Positions 41,500 to 52,024 of a stretch of 64,000 bases of DNA are shown here, piece by piece. The notes under the pieces were generated by a model. The model was given only the letters and a program-made list of their open reading frames with translations. It ran no database searches and was not told where the DNA came from. The first letter of the stretch is position 1. Each line of letters opens with the position of its first letter. The translations under genes were made by a program, and so were the position numbers. The stretch covers positions 434,001-498,000 of the forward strand of contig NZ_JAFZ01000001.1 of NCBI RefSeq assembly GCF_000526395.1, read 5' to 3'. The DNA is from Aminobacterium mobile DSM 12262. Its GTDB lineage: Bacteria; Synergistota; Synergistia; Synergistales; Aminobacteriaceae.

Positions 41500-42393
41500 T
41501 TGAAATTCTTTTCTTTGTTAAAAAAAACTCTTTTTCATCTCGGTTCTGCTCTTCGCTCAGAGTGGCAGACTTTTGCTGCTGTTATTGTGGGCAATGTTCT
41601 CATGGCCCTTGCAGTGGTTATTTTTATTATGCCTAATCGATTCCCTGACCTGGGAGTTTCAGGGCTTGCAGTACTCTCTAATTATGTATGGGGTATCTCA
41701 CCATCCTGGGTTATTCTTATAGGCAATGCCATATTGATGCTCTGGGCCTGGCGAGAGCTCTCGCCTCGATTTGTAATTTGGACGTTGTTTTCAATTATTC
41801 TTTTTTCTTTCTTAATCAAAGTCTTTGAGTTTATTCCATTCCTTAATCTCAATGATAAATTTATGGCGGCAGTTGTTAGCGGAGTCATAAAGGGATTTGG
41901 GGCGGGCCTAATTCTTAGAATGGGGGCATCTACAGGAGGGCTCGACATACCTGGTATGGCCCTTCGTAAACGTTATGGCATAGAGATGGGGCAATTTTCC
42001 ATATCGTGTAATTCTGTGATACTGCTTCTTTCCGCCTTTGTTGTGGGAATTCAGTCTACTATTTATGGCGTCGTTGCTCTCTATATATATGGGATCGTTC
42101 TCGACAATACAACCCGTTCCTTTGACAGGCGGAAGCAAGTGTTTGTTATTACGAATCATCCCCATGAAGTGTCAGGGTTTATTACGGGAAGCCTCCATCG
42201 GGGAGTAACTCTTCTTCATGGAGAGGGAGGGTTTTCTGGGAAGGAACGAATTGTCCTCTTGGCCCTTTTAGAGCCTCGACAAGTTGTGGCTCTAAAACGT
42301 TTCCTCGCAGAGAACGATCCCCATGCTTTTATGTCTATTAACGAGGCCTCCGAAGTAGTTGGGAAAGGATTCAAGAGCTGGAAGTCTCTATAG
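41500..42393 (+). CDS. YitT-family membrane protein (DUF161 + DUF2179)
   Basis: A 297-residue inner-membrane protein. Residues 25-210 have five to six hydrophobic spans with the YitT marks FIMPNRFPDLGVSGLAVL and GAGLILRMGASTGGLDIPG. Residues 215-290 are the soluble DUF2179 domain (QVFVITNHPHEVSGFI, HRGVTLLHGEGGFSG). The start is TTG 41500 with AAGGAGGA at 41483-41490, since no ATG lies near. The function of this family is not established. It is divergent from remB-gyrB, and its 3' end overlaps the convergent AddA gene end by six bases. Confidence 0.87.
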   Translation: MKFFSLLKKTLFHLGSALRSEWQTFAAVIVGNVLMALAVVIFIMPNRFPDLGVSGLAVLSNYVWGISPSWVILIGNAILMLWAWRELSPRFVIWTLFSIILFSFLIKVFEFIPFLNLNDKFMAAVVSGVIKGFGAGLILRMGASTGGLDIPGMALRKRYGIEMGQFSISCNSVILLLSAFVVGIQSTIYGVVALYIYGIVLDNTTRSFDRRKQVFVITNHPHEVSGFITGSLHRGVTLLHGEGGFSGKERIVLLALLEPRQVVALKRFLAENDPHAFMSINEASEVVGKGFKSWKSL

Positions 42394-45300
42394 GCTGTAG
42401 CAACTGTATCTGGACGGCCATGAACATTCATGCTTGAAAGGGCATGGAGTGCAACGTCCAGGGAGAGGGGAAAAAGGCCCCGCTATCCCTCCTTTTGCCA
42501 TGGTTTTGATAGCCTCCTCAAGTCCCTCCCATCCTTGAGGGTCGGGAGTATCCACTTTTTCTTCCTGTCCCTCTCGAAGATGCCATAAAGCAAGAGATAT
42601 TCGAGAGGGCGCGAAGATCTTTTGAGCCGCGAGACCGTAAAAAAGAATTTGGTCGTTATAAAGATTTTTTGGCACTTTCGAAATAGTTGTAATTTTATAA
42701 TCCCTTATGAAGAGGCAATCTCCTTCCTTCCAAAGAAGATCGATAGCTCCTCCCATTTGTGGCCCTTGTGGAATATGGAGTTGGAATGGGACCTCTTTCA
42801 GGACGGCGTCAGCATGTTTTTGAATTCTCTCTACAGTTGGGCTCTTTTGGAAAGTAGAAAGCCATGTATAGAGCTGATGAGGAATGCCTCTATGAAACCA
42901 GATGGGTCTAAGGTCCGGAGGTAGCTTTTCTCCGAATATCTGCCAGTTATTTTCGTTTGGGAAAAAAACTTCTATTGGTTCTTCTACAAAATTCCATTGC
43001 GAGAGAAGATAGTGAGCCAAGCTGCCAAGATCTGTTCCTCCTTCATCTCTTTCATCGCTGGGCTGTTCCCATACGAGCTCTTGCCCTTGCCTATGTTTTA
43101 AACGGAAAGCGTAGGGGCAATATCTATAAAGAGCAAAAGATGTTGCGCTTACTCTGCTAAGAAATAGACAGTTTTGCTCGGGGCATGGAACGGCTATGGG
43201 AGCATTCTCTTGTTCTTTCTCTTTGCCTTCATTAAAAGGTGAGGAGAGTGTCGGAAGGTCTTCTTTCTGTATAAAAGCAGCGATATCCCCCTCTTTTTTA
43301 CAAAGCATTTCCAGCCAAGATCCTTCTTTAGGGGTAAGCCCTTCTTTTTTGAATGGAAGAGCCCCGCAGAGGATAAGACTATCCCGGGCACGGGTACAGG
43401 CCACATAAAAGAGGCGTTGCCACTCTTCATATTCGTCTCGAGCTTCTAATAATTTGGCTAAAGACCAGGTAAGAGGACTTTTATCGTTTTCATTTCCCGG
43501 AATACGACTTAAAGCAATACCGAGTTTCTTAGAGGGGGTGAGGCTACTTTTTTCTCCACTATTGCTTGTTCGTTCCATTCCCATTAAAGCCAAAACAGGA
43601 AACTCCAATCCCTTGGATCCATGTACGGTCAAAACGCGAATAACGTCCTCTTTTTCTCCGGCAGAATCTGCTTCTTCTACTTTTTCCTGTCGTCGTACCG
43701 CTTCTCTCAGGTATGCGGCACATCCAGGAAGGCTTGTTCCTATAGATGACTCGAACTCTCGTGCGATGTCTACTGCTTTCCTCAAGTTGGCTGCTACTCT
43801 GCGTCTTTTCCATGCAGGAAAGACCAGAAGGGTTGCCCCTCTTTCTAGAAAAGAAGCGAGAACGGCTGATGGACCGAGGAGATGGGCTGTGAGTCTCCAA
43901 TCTTTTATCATGAGGGCAAGTTCTGGGTATTCTTGACAGAAAGCTTGAACTCGATAGCCGGCAGGATGTTGAGAAGCCAAGTTTCGAACATCCTCCAGGG
44001 AAAGGCCAGAAAAGGGGGAAGATAAAAATCCCATGAGATCTGCTTCACTCTCAGGATTATCTAGAAAATTCAGCAAAGCTATGAGGTCTTGAATTTCGCT
44101 TCTAGAAAAGTAGCTGGTACTGCCTTCCAAATATATAGGAATATGAAATTCCTCAAAGAATACTTTCTCTAATAGAGGGAACCATATGGAGCGAGAAGGT
44201 ACAAGAATTGCCATATCGCTCCATTGTACAGGACGTTGTATTTGTTCTTTCTTGTCCCAGATTGTCTTTTTTTTGTGATGATAGGAGAAAAGTGTATGAG
44301 CAAGCCTTCGCGTTTGGCGGAGTCGTACATCATCGATGGATTCTTGTTTCTCTCCCGCTTCTATAAATAACAGAAGGGGATCAACGGTACATTGTTGCCG
44401 TTCTTCATGGAACTCAAGGTGTCGGGGCACCTTTAAGGGGTCGTAAGGAAGGGGAAGCTCTTCTCCTAACCCTTTCTCCCAAAGGAGGGCGAAAAGACTG
44501 TTTACTCCCTGAACAAGGTTTTCTCGGCTTCTAAAACTGGTATCTAAAACTATATAACGCCCTTCTCCGCTTTGAGCTCGACGAATATAGGAGCCGAAGA
44601 GGGTAAGATCTGCATGGCGGAAGCGGTAAATAGATTGTTTAAGGTCTCCTACAATAAAAAGGCGTTGGTTTTCCTGGCAAACTTCCTGAATGAGCTGGTC
44701 TTGAAGGGGATTTGTGTCTTGAAATTCGTCGACTAGAATTTCCTTAAATCGAGAAGCATAGTGGGGACTATTTCCCAAGGCTTCTATTGCATAACGAATC
44801 ATATCATCAAAGGAGAGTCGGTTTTTCCTGTGCCGAAAAACGTCCCATCCTTTCCAGAAAAGAGCGGATATTTGCATAATATATCGCCTGTAAACGTGTT
44901 CGTTTTCTCCTATTCCTTTTCCTTTGCTATAAGCCTCAAGCCAAGGTTCATCTTTTTTCAGACGATCTCTGTAGCTTCGCACTGGTTCTCCTAAATGTTC
45001 CGCAATTTCATCACTTAGTTTGCCAGAAGCTCCCTTAAGGCAGAGAATTAATGATTCTATGAATGTGGGCAGGTTTTCATCTAAGGGACAGGTATTCCAA
45101 TCTCTCTCGAGAGATTCTATTCGTTGGCTCAGGGTTTTACTTGACTTTCCTAGTTCCGTTAAAGAATAGAAAAGCCCTTCTTGCGGCTTAAGGAATTTAT
45201 TCCATTCATCCCTCCATCGCTGAAAGATAACAGGTTTAAGGGATTGAAGTAGGGATGCGTCTCGATCTGCGAGTTCATTGCCCCAAGTCCATATATCTTC

Positions 45301-45933
45301 TGGCGATAGTCCTTGGCTTGCGAAAAGAGCCAGGCAGCTTTGAGCCGTTCCGACTATAGCTGATGGGCCAAAATTGTTGACGCAGCTCATAAAAAGAGGA
45401 TCGCCCAGAAGCTCTTTGACTTTTGCGTGCCACTCTTTGGGAAGCTGTCGTTGGAACCAGTGTTTATCCCAGAGATCCAGGGCTTTCTCCCCCTCATCCC
45501 AGAACAAAACCTCTTGTGGAGGTGCTACTATATTCGATTCGGGGTCAAGAGTTGTTGAGAGCCCGCTTTCTTTAAGGACTCGCATTGAGAATGCGTGAAT
45601 AGTGGAGATATATGCTTCATCAATTCTCTGAGCGGCTTCTAAAAAGGTTTTTTTATACGAAGGTATTTTTCTGGAAAGGTCCAAGAGCAAGCTTCTAATC
45701 CGTTCAGACATTTCTGTCGCTGCTTTTTCGGTAAAAGTTAAAGTAAGAATTTCATCTACTTTGGCTCGACCTGTGGCGATAGCCCAAATGAAGCGCCAAG
45801 CCAGGGTCCATGTTTTACCAGTACCAGCACCTGCGCTTACAACCACGAGGGGGTCGTCAGCGGTAATAGCCTGAAATTGTCCTAGCTCTGTTTGAGATCT
45901 AAGGAAGGTTTCAAGGTGGTTATTCTTCGTCAT
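42388..45933 (-). CDS. addA: AddA-like ATP-dependent helicase/nuclease subunit
   Basis: An 1181-residue UvrD/Rep-type helicase joined to a RecB-type nuclease, which processes double-strand breaks together with AddB. Walker A is SAGAGTGKTWTL near residue 33, Walker B is ILVDEFQDTNPLQD near 405, helicase motifs RVLTVHGSKGLEFP near 775 and FYVACTRARD near 860. The C-terminal nuclease has GAIDLLW...FIRDYKIT (Asp, Asp, Lys). It also has one Cys in YRYCPYAF and three in CTPCPFKHEC, the arrangement that holds an Fe-S cluster in AddB-type nucleases; Bacillus AddA lacks it. AGGAGAAG precedes ATG 45933. It overlaps the end of addB by 14 bases. Confidence 0.9.
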   Translation of the reverse strand: MTKNNHLETFLRSQTELGQFQAITADDPLVVVSAGAGTGKTWTLAWRFIWAIATGRAKVDEILTLTFTEKAATEMSERIRSLLLDLSRKIPSYKKTFLEAAQRIDEAYISTIHAFSMRVLKESGLSTTLDPESNIVAPPQEVLFWDEGEKALDLWDKHWFQRQLPKEWHAKVKELLGDPLFMSCVNNFGPSAIVGTAQSCLALFASQGLSPEDIWTWGNELADRDASLLQSLKPVIFQRWRDEWNKFLKPQEGLFYSLTELGKSSKTLSQRIESLERDWNTCPLDENLPTFIESLILCLKGASGKLSDEIAEHLGEPVRSYRDRLKKDEPWLEAYSKGKGIGENEHVYRRYIMQISALFWKGWDVFRHRKNRLSFDDMIRYAIEALGNSPHYASRFKEILVDEFQDTNPLQDQLIQEVCQENQRLFIVGDLKQSIYRFRHADLTLFGSYIRRAQSGEGRYIVLDTSFRSRENLVQGVNSLFALLWEKGLGEELPLPYDPLKVPRHLEFHEERQQCTVDPLLLFIEAGEKQESIDDVRLRQTRRLAHTLFSYHHKKKTIWDKKEQIQRPVQWSDMAILVPSRSIWFPLLEKVFFEEFHIPIYLEGSTSYFSRSEIQDLIALLNFLDNPESEADLMGFLSSPFSGLSLEDVRNLASQHPAGYRVQAFCQEYPELALMIKDWRLTAHLLGPSAVLASFLERGATLLVFPAWKRRRVAANLRKAVDIAREFESSIGTSLPGCAAYLREAVRRQEKVEEADSAGEKEDVIRVLTVHGSKGLEFPVLALMGMERTSNSGEKSSLTPSKKLGIALSRIPGNENDKSPLTWSLAKLLEARDEYEEWQRLFYVACTRARDSLILCGALPFKKEGLTPKEGSWLEMLCKKEGDIAAFIQKEDLPTLSSPFNEGKEKEQENAPIAVPCPEQNCLFLSRVSATSFALYRYCPYAFRLKHRQGQELVWEQPSDERDEGGTDLGSLAHYLLSQWNFVEEPIEVFFPNENNWQIFGEKLPPDLRPIWFHRGIPHQLYTWLSTFQKSPTVERIQKHADAVLKEVPFQLHIPQGPQMGGAIDLLWKEGDCLFIRDYKITTISKVPKNLYNDQILFYGLAAQKIFAPSRISLALWHLREGQEEKVDTPDPQGWEGLEEAIKTMAKGGIAGPFSPLPGRCTPCPFKHECSWPSRYSCYSL

Positions 45934-48856
45934 TTTCTTCTCCTCGTCCTGATAGTTCTGAGCGTCGGCATAGTTGTGCAAGAGAGCAATATCGGCAGAC
46001 ATCTGAATTATAGCGAGGAGGATATTGTGTGGAGATAAGGCTTTGTGCCATCTCCTTCAATCCTTGTTTAGCTTCGTCCATAGTCCTTTGTAACCCCATG
46101 TTATCCCGCCCGTTTTTTACCCCCACTATACATTGAAGGTCGCCGGAAGAAATATAGCCAGTAAGAGTGCAATCCTCATGACATATATAGATAGTTCCAC
46201 TAATCTCCTGTATTGGCGCCGGCAAGACTCCTTCTCCTTCAAGGAGAGCTAGCCCATATGCTGCAAGTTGCAAGCTTTTATTTCGCCCATTACTTTTCCC
46301 AAGTTTATAATCGAAGATGAGAATCCGTCCATCTCGTAAATATTCAATACGATCCGCACGTCCCGTGAAGGGAACTCCTCCTATGGTGAGTACGGGGAGA
46401 TCTTTTTCACGATATTGTTGCTGTCGCAATTCAGCAAGCCCGGCCTCTTCTATAGATTGCTGAATTTCAGCCATAGAGAGGCATTGAGAAAGGAGGTTTT
46501 CTCGATATCGCACCAGATATGATGACTCTAAAAGTTGTGGGTAACTCTTCTGAAGAGCTTGTTCCCAAAAAGAAGGGACAAGATATGGAAGAGGTTCTTT
46601 TTCTTTTAGATAGACGCTCCAAACTTTATCCCAGAGAGTGTGGAGGGCGGACCCAATATTTCGCGGGTCAGCTCCGAAGGAGGTAGGCCCTTTTATGTCG
46701 AATAAAGTTGTACAGGAGAAACGGAACGGGCAATTTATGTAATCATCAAGTTTGCTGAGTTGCCCATGGAGAGGCTGGGGTGCAATATGATGATCAACAG
46801 GAAGTTGCCGCTTAGCCCCCTGAAAAGGGTATGCATTTTCTCGGATCTCTACCTTTTCTATAATACAATCATCCTCTCCTGGCAAAAGTTTGCTGAGAGA
46901 ACGTTCTAAAGGATCTATGTCTTGAGGTAGCGCTATCCATCCATCTAGAAGAGCATTGCCCATAAAAGGGGTCACCGGTAAGGGGCGTCCTGAGGAGTCG
47001 GCTGCAGGAGAGCTTATAATAACAGCTTCTTCTCCACAGGCGAGTAACCGACGAAAAAGTCCCTCTCGTTGTTGCCGTTTTTCTTTGAGAAGGGGGAGAT
47101 GTCCCCTCTCTGTTTCGGTGATTTCGTGAAGTATTGCTTTGCGGTGATCTGGGAGAAGGGGGGACTCGCTGAGCTTTCCAGGCCAAACTGCAGCAGTAAG
47201 GCCTGGCATGATCCATAGAGACCGTTGGGTCAGGACAGGTGGAGTTCCTACATAAAGAGCAAGTGCTCCTTTTACAGATGGGGGAAGCCATATGGTAGCT
47301 ACAGATGCCCAATGACACAAAAATGTCATAGCATGTCCATTAGAGAGAGTATCTTGCCCTGCTGGACCGATTCTGTTCTCCACTTCTGCAAGGTTTTCTA
47401 TTTTATGTTCTGTTTCTCGTAAAGCCGCATTGAGCCGGCGAAGAGCTTCATCGAGTTCAGGATGATTTATGGCCCATTCAGAGAGTTCTGGTCCCCACGA
47501 AGGAGCATCTGTTGCCAAAGAATAGAGCGCTTGCAATAAGTCGGAAGGCGTCCCTCCAGTTCGGAGCTTCTTTACAAAAGAGGCCATTTTTTTAAAGGAT
47601 CCCACTCCTCTTTCGGGAGCTTTTTGCTGGAGAAGAGAGTTCCATCCCTCCTCGCTAAGAGAGAAAATATCTGGTGGAGGAGGAGTTTGTAGTTCTTTCC
47701 CGGCTAAACAGGGTTCTCTGAGGAGAGACCATGTTTTTTCAAGAGGCCACCACTCTTCACCCACTTCCCATATTCGTTGAGCCAGATCCCAAAGAGGAGT
47801 TTGATCCACAGTAAGCCCTTCATTAACGCTGTAGGGGATGCGGTAACGTTTTAATACTTCCTCTGTTAAAGAGAGGGAACTTCTTTCTATAAGCACGCCT
47901 GTTGAATCCCAAGAAGGAGCCTTCCTTTCAGGGGCAGCTACAGAAAAATATCCCTTTTGATTGTGCCAAAGCACCATCTCTCTTGCCAAAACCTCAATTT
48001 CCATTCGAGGAGATCCGGCAGTTACTCGAATACAGTCTGTTGTTTGAGAAGAAGGCGTTGATTCGAGGGTACCCCAAGGGAATTGGTCTATTGTTGTGTA
48101 TAGGCTTTTTATTCCGGTGGTGGGAGAAAATATTGAGACATGGCCACCCATGTTCATTATCTCTGATAGAAGCACTTTCTGACTTGAGCTGAAGCTGAGA
48201 AATCCTACAAAAAGAAAGTTCTGTTTTTCTATCCATTCTTGAGATATATTTCCGCCTTTTTCGAGAAGTTCAAGAGTGACAAGAGGTACTTGTGCACTAT
48301 CCATAAGATTATAGGCAGAAAGATAGCGTACATATTGGTGATAAAGAAGACAGAGAACCCCTTCCCCACTCTTTTCGAGAGGACAGGAAGTGGGTGTACA
48401 CCTTGAACATCCAAGAGAAAGGCCGAGGGTTTCAGGTTGAATAGCCTCTCTGAGGAGTTCTCGACAATGAGCTCCTAATATAGAAGCGAAGCCTGGTTGA
48501 CGCACCCCCGGCGGTAATGGTGAATTTTCAGGGCATCCCCCAAGATATTCCTTCAATATATGACGAATAATAAGCCAATGATCTGGAGGGTCTATTTGAC
48601 GGCGAGGCTCTACTCGAACGCCTTTTTGGTGAAGGACTCTAACTATATTTTGTGTGAGGTCTTCCCATCGCCATATGGCTGGCTGAGAGTGTCCCCAAGC
48701 TCCTTGGGGCAGTAGAATGTCTTGTAAAAGTTTTTTATCGCGGCTTGTAGGGACGAAGAAAACCTTTGATGTTGCATCCAGACTTTTGGGGGAACGAAGC
48801 TCCTTTTCCAGTTCAGAAATATGACGATATAAAACAACCCTGGGTTGTGTTCCCAC
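45920..48856 (-). CDS. addB: AddB-like nuclease subunit, Walker A motif lost
   Basis: A 978-residue partner of AddA. The C-terminal RecB-type nuclease domain has FTGRADRIEYL...ILIFDYKLG (Asp, Asp, Lys), with the Fe-S Cys in YINCPFRFS and in VCRYCSLAQLC. The N-terminal part resembles an inactive helicase: the family P-loop (GRSGSGKT in Bacillus) is absent and the protein begins just before the VFFVPTSRDKKLLQD block. The start is GTG 48856 with AGGAGGG about eight bases upstream, and no longer N-terminus is available. It is shorter than Bacillus AddB (about 1166 residues). It is the first gene of the addB-addA operon. Confidence 0.87.
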   Translation of the reverse strand: MGTQPRVVLYRHISELEKELRSPKSLDATSKVFFVPTSRDKKLLQDILLPQGAWGHSQPAIWRWEDLTQNIVRVLHQKGVRVEPRRQIDPPDHWLIIRHILKEYLGGCPENSPLPPGVRQPGFASILGAHCRELLREAIQPETLGLSLGCSRCTPTSCPLEKSGEGVLCLLYHQYVRYLSAYNLMDSAQVPLVTLELLEKGGNISQEWIEKQNFLFVGFLSFSSSQKVLLSEIMNMGGHVSIFSPTTGIKSLYTTIDQFPWGTLESTPSSQTTDCIRVTAGSPRMEIEVLAREMVLWHNQKGYFSVAAPERKAPSWDSTGVLIERSSLSLTEEVLKRYRIPYSVNEGLTVDQTPLWDLAQRIWEVGEEWWPLEKTWSLLREPCLAGKELQTPPPPDIFSLSEEGWNSLLQQKAPERGVGSFKKMASFVKKLRTGGTPSDLLQALYSLATDAPSWGPELSEWAINHPELDEALRRLNAALRETEHKIENLAEVENRIGPAGQDTLSNGHAMTFLCHWASVATIWLPPSVKGALALYVGTPPVLTQRSLWIMPGLTAAVWPGKLSESPLLPDHRKAILHEITETERGHLPLLKEKRQQREGLFRRLLACGEEAVIISSPAADSSGRPLPVTPFMGNALLDGWIALPQDIDPLERSLSKLLPGEDDCIIEKVEIRENAYPFQGAKRQLPVDHHIAPQPLHGQLSKLDDYINCPFRFSCTTLFDIKGPTSFGADPRNIGSALHTLWDKVWSVYLKEKEPLPYLVPSFWEQALQKSYPQLLESSYLVRYRENLLSQCLSMAEIQQSIEEAGLAELRQQQYREKDLPVLTIGGVPFTGRADRIEYLRDGRILIFDYKLGKSNGRNKSLQLAAYGLALLEGEGVLPAPIQEISGTIYICHEDCTLTGYISSGDLQCIVGVKNGRDNMGLQRTMDEAKQGLKEMAQSLISTQYPPRYNSDVCRYCSLAQLCRRSELSGRGEENDEE

Positions 48857-48983
48857 AAGAAATCCCTCCTACAGCAAATATAATTACGATAGTTTTATTT
48901 TACCCTAATATTCAGCTTCTTCTAGTAACAAGAAGGCGGTTTGAGATATACTTTACATAAAGTGTAAGAGAGGGAGGGATAAA

Positions 48984-49355
48984 ATGAAAAGAATTATTTT
49001 TTCTATGATTATTTTGGGAAGCCTTTTTCTCGGAGCATTTACCGGGGCCTGGGCGGAAACAGAGAAGGAGAAGAGGCTCACGTTGGTCATTTCGGCGCCG
49101 GCTCTCGAATATATGAAAACTCTTCCAGCACCCCTCTATTTAGATTGGGGATATTACAGGGGAGCTTGAGGGGAGGAGGAATCGGCTCTCGTGAAGAGTC
49201 GAGAACCCAGGGATCCTGAATCTTTTATAGAAATTTCCAACGATCAGATGAGCTTGTTTGTCAGAAAAAATATGAAATTTCAAAACGATGTAGTTTCTAT
49301 AGAGTATTTTGAGTATATAGGGAAAAAAGTGTTGATTTGCCGTTCCGTTTTCTAA
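48984..49355 (+). CDS. Exported small protein with in-frame TGA: candidate HesB-like selenoprotein
   Basis: One reading frame of 123 codons from ATG 48984 to TAA 49353, broken only by TGA at 49167-49169 (codon 62). Residues 1-24 look like a signal peptide (MKRIIFSMIILGSLFLGAF..., cut after AWA). Then LTLVISAPALEYMKTL leads to LYLDWGYYRGA, the TGA, and 61 further sense codons: GEEES, REPRDPESF, SLFVRKNMKFQND, VSIEYFEYIGKKVLIC. From memory this order resembles the small HesB-like (CC/Se motif) family, where Cys or Sec sits at this place. An 8-bp hairpin follows the TGA at selenocysteine-insertion distance. AGAGAGGGAGGG is the ribosome site. If not a selenoprotein, it is a nonsense-interrupted pseudogene. 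Confidence 0.6.
49182..49202 (+). promoter_or_regulatory. SECIS-like stem-loop downstream of the in-frame TGA
   Basis: Arms 49182-49189 (TCGGCTCT) and 49195-49202 (AGAGTCGA) form eight pairs, one a G-T wobble, with the 5-base loop CGTGA at 49190-49194. The loop begins 20 bases after the TGA and has a G among its first two positions, which fits the published bacterial SECIS pattern. Short hairpins like this also arise by chance. Confidence 0.45.
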
Positions 49356-49514
49356 GCACATCGAATGATGTAGAAGAAGTAGAAGTAGAAGAATGTGTTG
49401 ATAAAAGCAGGGGAAGCTACAGGCACTATGGCTTTCTTTGCTTTTTTTATTTACTTGGGGTACGATTCTTTAAACTATAAACTATATGTATAAAGGTAGT
49501 TTCATTGAGGTGGT

Positions 49515-50144
49515 ATGAACGTGGTGAAAGCGGTTGTTTTCGATTTTGATATGACATTGGCTGATAGTAGCTATGCGATTACAGAATGCACGAATCGTTT
49601 AGCAGAAGAGCAAGGGTTGAGACCTGTTACGAGGGAAGAGGTACTTAAAACTATAGGGATGCCTATTCGGGATGGATGGCTTTTTCTTTGGGGACGTTTC
49701 GAAGAAGATTGGCTTGTTCGATATCGAGGATTTTTTGTAGAGCAGGAGTACGCAGGAATTCGAGTTTTCCCAGGTACTGTTCCTCTTTTAAAATCTCTCC
49801 AGAAAAAAGGGATAAAACTTGCTGTAGCCTCGAATCGTCAGAATGCTCGACCTGTAGTGGAATCGCAGAGACTTGAAGGTTTTTTTGAGTATATTATCGG
49901 TATTCAGGATGTTGAGAACCCCAAGCCAGCTCCCGATATCCTATATAAGAGCATGGAGCTTCTCAAAACTGATCCAGAAGAGATTTTTTATGTAGGAGAT
50001 ACAGATTTGGATATGATGACTTCTGTAGCTGCAGGGGTTCGAGGTTTAGGGCTTTCGACGGGGAATTTTTCTAGAGAAGAATTGCAAGCTTCCGGAGCTT
50101 GGAAGACTTTTGAAAAAATAGAAGATATCCTTACCTTGTTTTAA
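49515..50144 (+). CDS. HAD-family phosphatase (phosphoglycolate-phosphatase-like)
   Basis: A 209-residue HAD-superfamily hydrolase with a helical cap of subclass I. Motif I is VFDFDMTLADS near residue 8 (nucleophile Asp and acid Asp), motif II is LAVASNRQ near 108, and motifs III-IV are NPKPAPDILYKS near 138 and FYVGDTDLDMMTS near 162. It probably dephosphorylates a small metabolite such as 2-phosphoglycolate or a sugar phosphate. GAGGTGG precedes the ATG. A weak hairpin (GGCGT...ACGCC at 50145-50162) follows the stop, and the DUF255 gene begins 60 bases later. Confidence 0.88.
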   Translation: MNVVKAVVFDFDMTLADSSYAITECTNRLAEEQGLRPVTREEVLKTIGMPIRDGWLFLWGRFEEDWLVRYRGFFVEQEYAGIRVFPGTVPLLKSLQKKGIKLAVASNRQNARPVVESQRLEGFFEYIIGIQDVENPKPAPDILYKSMELLKTDPEEIFYVGDTDLDMMTSVAAGVRGLGLSTGNFSREELQASGAWKTFEKIEDILTLF

Positions 50145-50206: not shown

Positions 50207-52024
50207 ATGTGTAGAAAAGCAAATAGACTCATAAAAGAGAAGAGTCCTTATTTACTTCAGCATGCCTACAATCCTGTAGATTGGTATCCTTGGGGGAAAG
50301 AAGCCTTTGAAAAAGCAAAGGCGGAAAATAAACCTATTTTTTTAAGTATTGGATACTCTACCTGCCATTGGTGCCATGTAATGGAGCGGGAAAGTTTCAA
50401 TGACGACGAAGTCGCTCTTCTTCTTAATGATGCATGTGTCTGTATAAAAGTAGATAGGGAGGAACGTCCCGATATTGACTATGCGTGTATGGCTGTGAGC
50501 CTTATTATGAACGGTAGTGGCGGCTGGCCTCTCAATCTTTTCCTCACGCCAGAAGGAAAACCTTTCTTTGCCACTTCATATGTTCCTAAAAGGACGATAA
50601 AAAATATTCCGGGACTTGTAGAGATGGTTCCCCGTGTTAAGTGGTTATGGCTTATGAAACAGCAAGAAGTCCTTCGTTCAGCCGATAGTATTATTGAGGC
50701 GTTGGAAAAAAGCCATGTGGAGAGCAGAGGAGCATGCCCAGGGCAGAAAACTGTTATGGAAGCCTATAAAGAGCTTCGGCAGCGTTTTGACCCCCTAGGG
50801 GGCGGTTTTTTTGATGCCCCCAAGTTTCCCTCTCCTCACATTATTTTGTTTTTGCTTGAGTACAGCAAGATTTTTGGGGAGAAGGAAGTTTTTGAGATGG
50901 TTCAGAAAACCCTGGACCGCATGGCTATGGGAGGGATTCATGATCATATTGGGGGTGGCTTTTCCCGATATGCTACTGATCGGGAATGGAGAGTCCCTCA
51001 TTTTGAGAAGATGCTTTATGACCAAGCTTTGCTTATGGTTGCCTATACGTCAGCATGGGAATTAATGGGACAAGATTCTTACACGAAAGTAGTGCAGGAC
51101 ATTGCTACTTATGTTTTGCGCGATATGAGAGATTCAGGTGGTGCTTTTTATACGGGAGAGGACGCAGATAGCGAAGGGCTGGAGGGTCGTTTCTACCTTT
51201 GGACAGAAGATGAAATTCGACAGGTCATGCCGGCATCTGAAGCGAATCTTTTTATTCGGGCATATGGCATACAGCGTAAGGGGAATATATACCAGCAAAT
51301 GACAGGGAGTCGTCTAGGACAAAATGTTCTTTATATGCCCCTCTCTTTCCCTGAGCTTGCAGAAGACGTGGATATGGATTTGGAAGAGATAGAGAAACAG
51401 TTGGCGATAGCTCGTGCGAAACTTTTTGATATGAGGAATGAACGGGTTCGCCCTCATAGGGATGAAAAAATTCTTACAGACTGGAATGGATTGATGATCG
51501 CCGCGTTAGCCTATGCTGGTCGGGTTTTTGAGGAGCCTCGATATGTTGAGGAAGCCAAGAGGGCGGCGGATTTCCTTTTAGCGAAAGCTGTCTCTTCTGA
51601 TGGCTGTGTGGTTCATCGCATCGTTCAGGGAGAGGGAGGAGTAGAAGGATTCCTTTCAGATTATTCTTTCTTGATCTGGGGGTTGTTAGAGCTAGAGGAG
51701 GCTACTGGGAATACAACGTATGGGAAGAAGGCTCGCTGGCTTCTAGATGAGACGAATCGACGTTTTTTTGATGAGGAGCATGGTGGCTATTTCATGTCTC
51801 AGCGTAAAGAAAGCCTGCTTTTTTTCAATCCTAAAGATATAGAAGATGGCGCTACAATTTCGGGGAACTCCGTGGCAGTGATGAATCTTCTCCGTTTCCA
51901 CCGTCGTGAAGGTAATAAGGATTTCCTTAAACGTGCACGGCGGACTGGGGATTTTTGTGGAAGTCAGATAGAACAGAATCCAGCTATGTTTACACACTTC
52001 CTTACTGCAGCGATGTTCCTTTAA
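50207..52024 (+). CDS. DUF255 thioredoxin-domain protein (YyaL/SSP411 family)
   Basis: A 605-residue protein. Residues 5-160 form a thioredoxin-like domain with the redox motif C53-H-W-C56 (family form [14 protein letters not shown]) and then [14 protein letters not shown]. The rest is the alpha/alpha six-hairpin (glycosidase-like) region with [33 protein letters not shown] split across residues 240-280 and [16 protein letters not shown] near 320. No signal peptide, so cytoplasmic. The family is widespread in bacteria and its biochemical role is unclear. It is on the short side of the family range, with no sign of truncation. Confidence 0.9.

Follow-up and report, generated by a model that had tools for sequence, protein, structure and literature searches.

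A probable exported selenoprotein of Aminobacterium mobile from a Synergistota branch of the CC/Se-type family missed by current family models

The Synergistetes are known as a selenoprotein-rich phylum (PMC5029168), and 13 known selenoproteins are counted for Aminobacterium sp. MB27-C1 in PMC12013277. The named family nearest to the protein described here is CC/Se (NF041239), which was first predicted in Moorella thermoacetica and has the motif CxxU (PMC13188914 Table 1); no paper was found that uses "CC Se motif" as a phrase. The HesB-like selenoprotein TIGR01911 is likewise a small selenocysteine (Sec) protein and belongs to the same fold superfamily. Finally, the A-type iron-sulfur carriers IscA, SufA, HI1723 and AQ_1857 (PF01521) have a predicted fold and distant profile homology in common with our protein. 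The locus lies in a stretch of 64,000 nucleotides from Aminobacterium mobile DSM 12262 (the window), and it is very probably a genuine selenoprotein gene. That the product is a real, exported selenoprotein has in our estimate a probability of about 0.9, a figure that excludes its role. The protein is part of an exported Synergistota branch of the already known CC/Se-type selenoprotein family, and current family models do not recognise this branch. The features of the locus are collected in Table 1.

Table 1. Features of the candidate selenoprotein locus and its neighbourhood; positions are those of the window.
Feature	Position	Strand	Remarks
AddA-like helicase-nuclease subunit	42388..46002	-	divergent; neighbour
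AddB-like nuclease subunit (PDDEXK_1)	45920..48856	-	divergent; conserved neighbour
Shine-Dalgarno-like GGGAGGG	48972..48978	+	read from sequence; GGAGG 6 nt ahead of ATG
Probable selenoprotein CDS	48984..49355	+	123 aa, Sec is residue 62; ATG at 48984, stop TAA at 49353-49355; TGA of relatives in the same column
Predicted signal peptide MKRIIFSMIILGSLFLGAFTGAWA	48984..49055	+	cleavage after AWA; hydrophobic N-terminus kept in exported clade
TGA probably read as selenocysteine	49167..49169	+	codon 62; 50 TGA and 2 Cys among 52 curated loci; selA, selB, selD and tRNA-Sec in the genome
Bacterial SECIS hairpin	49182..49202	+	8-bp stem, loop CGUGA; fold, covariation, synonymous-codon null
Likely intrinsic terminator	49403..49448	+	long hairpin followed by T run; fold -21.5 kcal/mol
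HAD-family hydrolase	49515..50144	+	downstream; neighbour kept in several relatives
DUF255 / thioredoxin-domain (YyaL-like) protein	50207..52024	+	neighbour kept in several relatives

The relation to the CC/Se family is visible in the alignment with NF041239: the model matches residues 34-108 of the window protein, including the Sec column, with 29.6 bits (E 5e-7). The score falls short of the curated 40-bit cut-off, which was passed by none of the 12 exported members scanned, and the window protein had the best E-value among these. Some cytoplasmic relatives in the same alignment do pass the cut-off. Both the window protein and the CC/Se family have the core U...ALV-x-x-G-x-P, but the window protein adds a signal peptide and a WGxYxxxUGE motif of its own, and it lacks both the CxxU motif (YYRGA precedes the Sec) and the cluster of Cys residues found at the C-terminus of many cytoplasmic relatives. 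CC/Se, which had also been named in the initial annotation, is thus the nearest named family, though at a score below its cut-off. Since the exported proteins remain below the NCBIfam cut-off and lack a Pfam match, annotation with these models would probably end the protein at the TGA or overlook the gene.

The signal peptide that had been suspected at the N-terminus is supported and conserved across a clade. In the window protein it is predicted to comprise 24 residues ending in AWA, and on this basis the protein would be exported to the periplasm. We labelled the relatives as exported or cytoplasmic by a hydrophobicity cut of 2.0. One exported group is a branch of 28 rows that includes the window protein (support 92/80); a member within it, L024, has a hydrophobicity of 1.95 and thus falls just below the cut. 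The second exported group is a pair from another family, and the cytoplasmic members form a branch of 23 rows (support 98/92). The label changes only 2 times along the tree, as compared to 17.8 times in shuffles. A cytoplasmic paralogue of the CC/Se type, likewise interrupted by one TGA in frame, is encoded elsewhere in the A. mobile genome (G000; L072, L082; C4:23818-24081), adjoining a pseudouridine-synthase-like gene.

Structure prediction and profile comparison support, if less firmly, an A-type iron-sulfur carrier (IscA/SufA/HesB) fold for the window protein. No Pfam family, PF01521 included, matched the protein, and a sequence search of the PDB with the exported profile returned chance matches only. 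The AlphaFold2 model, calculated with the window protein and eight relatives, has a mean pLDDT of 74 and a pTM of 0.61, with the loop around the Sec below pLDDT 50. When this moderate-confidence model was compared to the PDB with Foldseek, ranks 1-9 were all SufA, IscA or HesB-like chains, with SufA first (E 0.007), and VIA found the same kind of chains (Z 7.7 to SufA, under 8), as expected for a protein with the A-type-carrier fold. Moreover, in a profile-profile comparison the CC/Se-type family was matched to A-type carriers, represented by IscA, SufA, HI1723, AQ_1857 and two Synergistota HesB-like proteins, with a P of 94% and an E of 1.5e-7, and in this alignment the Sec column falls on the first conserved cluster-binding Cys of the carriers. 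The exported clade alone is too divergent for such a match (P 11%), and the link to the carriers thus runs via the cytoplasmic relatives. Unlike the A-type carriers, the window protein is exported according to its predicted signal peptide and has a Sec in place of the Cys; instead of the three cluster-binding cysteines (the first Cys and a C-terminal CxC) it has only Sec62 and Cys119. PF01521 carriers were found neither in the genome of A. mobile nor in the 61 Synergistota genomes searched.

How might such a protein be made, and what could it do? SelB carrying Sec-tRNA would bind the SECIS hairpin, and we propose that ribosomes read the TGA at 49167 as selenocysteine due to this binding. The signal peptide would then export the pre-protein. 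In the mature protein, Sec62 would occupy the place of the first cluster-binding cysteine of A-type carriers, where it may bind soft metals or work as a redox selenol, either alone or, in most relatives, together with a Cys of the last strand (Cys119 in the window protein). The Sec might also bind the metal across a dimer, or as a redox selenol it might be recycled by external thiols. The most far-reaching reading, an exported A-type-carrier-like lineage with Sec for the cluster-binding Cys that handles soft metals or iron-sulfur clusters outside the cytoplasm, is in its entirety rather unlikely. The explanation that we prefer has a competitor that shares the selenoprotein and export claims and differs in the role only: the protein may be a redox selenoenzyme that has nothing but the fold in common with A-type carriers and forms a Sec62-Cys119 selenenylsulfide to be recycled by periplasmic thiols. 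This proposal, which we regard as a serious possibility somewhat short of even odds, finds support in the 18 of 30 exported members that have a Cys 57-59 residues past the Sec and in the 11 with a Cys adjoining it, and redox proteins make up most of the characterised selenoproteins (PMC13188914). On the other hand, four exported members (L015, L018, L020 and L027) have no Cys besides the Sec in the compared region, indicating that an internal Sec-Cys redox pair is not obligatory. The window protein itself has no Cys close to the Sec; this had been noticed before and counted against a selenoprotein. It is no objection, as many relatives with the conserved Sec lack a neighbouring Cys as well. 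If the role is considered by itself, redox, peroxide or persulfide chemistry may well apply with a chance a little under one half, soft-metal or cluster binding is tentative and slightly less probable, and a different role altogether is doubtful.

As to the HesB-like nature that the initial annotation had suggested, it holds for the fold and for distant homology, but not for the named family TIGR01911. Size and fold class of the window protein would suit a classical HesB-like selenoprotein of this family; however, the TIGR01911 profile matches neither the protein nor anything else in the genome of A. mobile, with two weak matches in the phylum, and the Sec motif is UGEE rather than UxGP (PMC13188914 Table 1), making this assignment very improbable. 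Together, the fold and profile results indicate a HesB/IscA fold in a family near CC/Se, of which the window protein is an exported variant.

The open reading frame fits the earlier description of a single frame with just one TGA, at codon 62: there are 61 codons on each side and no further stop in frame. Taken alone, such an interrupted frame is not beyond chance expectation. Comparable frames surround 7 of the 1978 TGA triplets in the window, and by our reading of their positions the other ones of similar size overlap or join other genes. Three lines of evidence raise the frame above chance: relatives across the phylum have their TGA in the same column, the hairpin co-varies without changing its register, and selection remains purifying past the TGA.

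First, a search with the read-through protein detected relatives in 47 of 188 Synergistota genomes, and where a match extends over the Sec column, it has exactly one TGA in nearly all cases. In a curated set of 52 loci, read strand by strand and including the window, the column of codon 62 contains TGA in 50 cases and Cys in two (L062a and L065, both cytoplasmic relatives); an ordinary residue was found at this position in none of the 52. The homologues thus have what would be looked for in a Sec/Cys column. Scanning the genome contig collection with a single sequence revealed no relative, and with a closer alignment as the query, 8 named Synergistota MAG loci were found. At one locus (L062, G113:C1:2136734-2137385), Sec and Cys paralogues are adjacent, and the Cys copy retains much of the SECIS-like hairpin. 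Another one (L053, G121:C7:617022-617820) harbours two relatives with Sec in tandem, followed downstream by an indolepyruvate-type oxidoreductase gene.

Second, the TGA is followed by a hairpin with a stem of eight pairs (49182-49189/49195-49202, one G-U) and a loop that begins 20 nt past the TGA and has a G at its second position. RNA folding gives this hairpin as the centroid with -10.2 kcal/mol. It satisfies the printed constraints on bacterial SECIS elements, i.e. a loop of 3-9 nt, a stem of 4-16 bp, a spacing of 16-37 nt, a G as first or second loop base, and an MFE of -7.5 or lower (PMC13188914). The 56-nt region showed no extra stability over shuffles (z 0.49). In most relatives the loop of the best hairpin is located 20-21 nt past the TGA, and a few of them score better in another register. 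Among 34 sequences, standard pairs occupy 88.6% of the pair cells, a share that falls to 50% or less once the register is shifted by 1-3 columns. Both sides had changed in 33 pair cells as compared to 9.5 in shuffles, and none of 500 shuffles reached 33. The hairpin overlaps the conserved SALV codons, and we therefore controlled for protein conservation by resampling synonymous codons: 356 of 400 cells were paired as compared to 246±7.6 (about ±8) in the resampled sets, with a maximum of 270 in 2000 draws. As the sequences are related, neither these figures nor those from the shuffles are independent-sample probabilities. Thus, the SECIS-like hairpin that had been pointed out initially is borne out by covariation and by the register kept in the relatives.

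Finally, there is purifying selection on both sides of the TGA, a statement based on four pairs of sequences. For the window protein and a relative from the same genus, pN/pS is 0.43 ahead of the TGA and 0.39 past it, and three further pairs gave 0.29-0.40 before and 0.20-0.34 after it. Low read-through under scarce selenium would fit a functional product of only the 61 residues before the TGA, the remainder being untranslated; yet pN/pS is no higher past the TGA than ahead of it, the relatives are conserved in amino-acid sequence up to their natural stop, and the second half contains the GE..SALV motif, which is invariant, together with the larger part of the predicted sheet, so that a truncated product is highly improbable. 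Even less can be said for a pseudogene or a sequencing error: a single TGA may arise as a nonsense mutation at codon 62 of a once-intact gene, and the gene is missing from the same locus in a congeneric genome (G030), but the same TGA is found across many genera at 30-45% identity, with purifying selection past it and a co-varying hairpin in a fixed register.

The machinery for selenocysteine insertion is encoded in the genome of A. mobile (2.1 Mb, five contigs, 99.7% complete). The genes selA and selB adjoin each other (C1:1058293 and C1:1059692), and the tRNA-Sec is located at C1:1158603 (67.7 bits); together with selD they all score above their family cut-offs. With the tRNA-Sec as selC, all four of selA, selB, selC and selD are thus present, as a selenoprotein would demand. 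As in other selenoprotein-type SelD genes, selD itself has one in-frame TGA (L010, G000:C1:1102593-1103528). If TGA had been reassigned to another amino acid such as Trp or Gly, we would likewise see a lone TGA in a frame that stays open past it, but such a reassignment can practically be dismissed: TGA terminates 8 of the 48 long ORFs in the window, indicating that it is no general sense codon here, the homologues L062a and L065 have Cys rather than Trp or Gly in the column, and both Sec machinery and SECIS are present.

The strong hairpin and T run past the stop codon suggest that the Sec gene is probably transcribed alone; a consensus terminator scan missed this element due to its loop limit of 8. 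The gene order is kept in several relatives, some of which have an indolepyruvate-type ferredoxin oxidoreductase gene adjoining the Sec gene. A congeneric genome, G030, has retained both flanks (the HAD gene and the addB edge) but contains a different gene between them, indicating that the Sec gene is dispensable. At the place expected for the Sec gene (L130, G030:C1:1677539-1678165 and upstream) there is, by eye, a homoserine-dehydrogenase-like gene.

The cytoplasmic CC/Se family is uncharacterised, and in the exported branch cysteines are few or absent apart from the Sec, which narrows the chemistry down to the Sec itself. Moreover, this branch offers a small soluble protein for testing, and the link to the A-type-carrier fold provides a structural hypothesis for the family. 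If the exported A-type-carrier-like reading is true, the branch would be a Sec-for-Cys lineage in a phylum without an ordinary A-type carrier in the 61 genomes searched.
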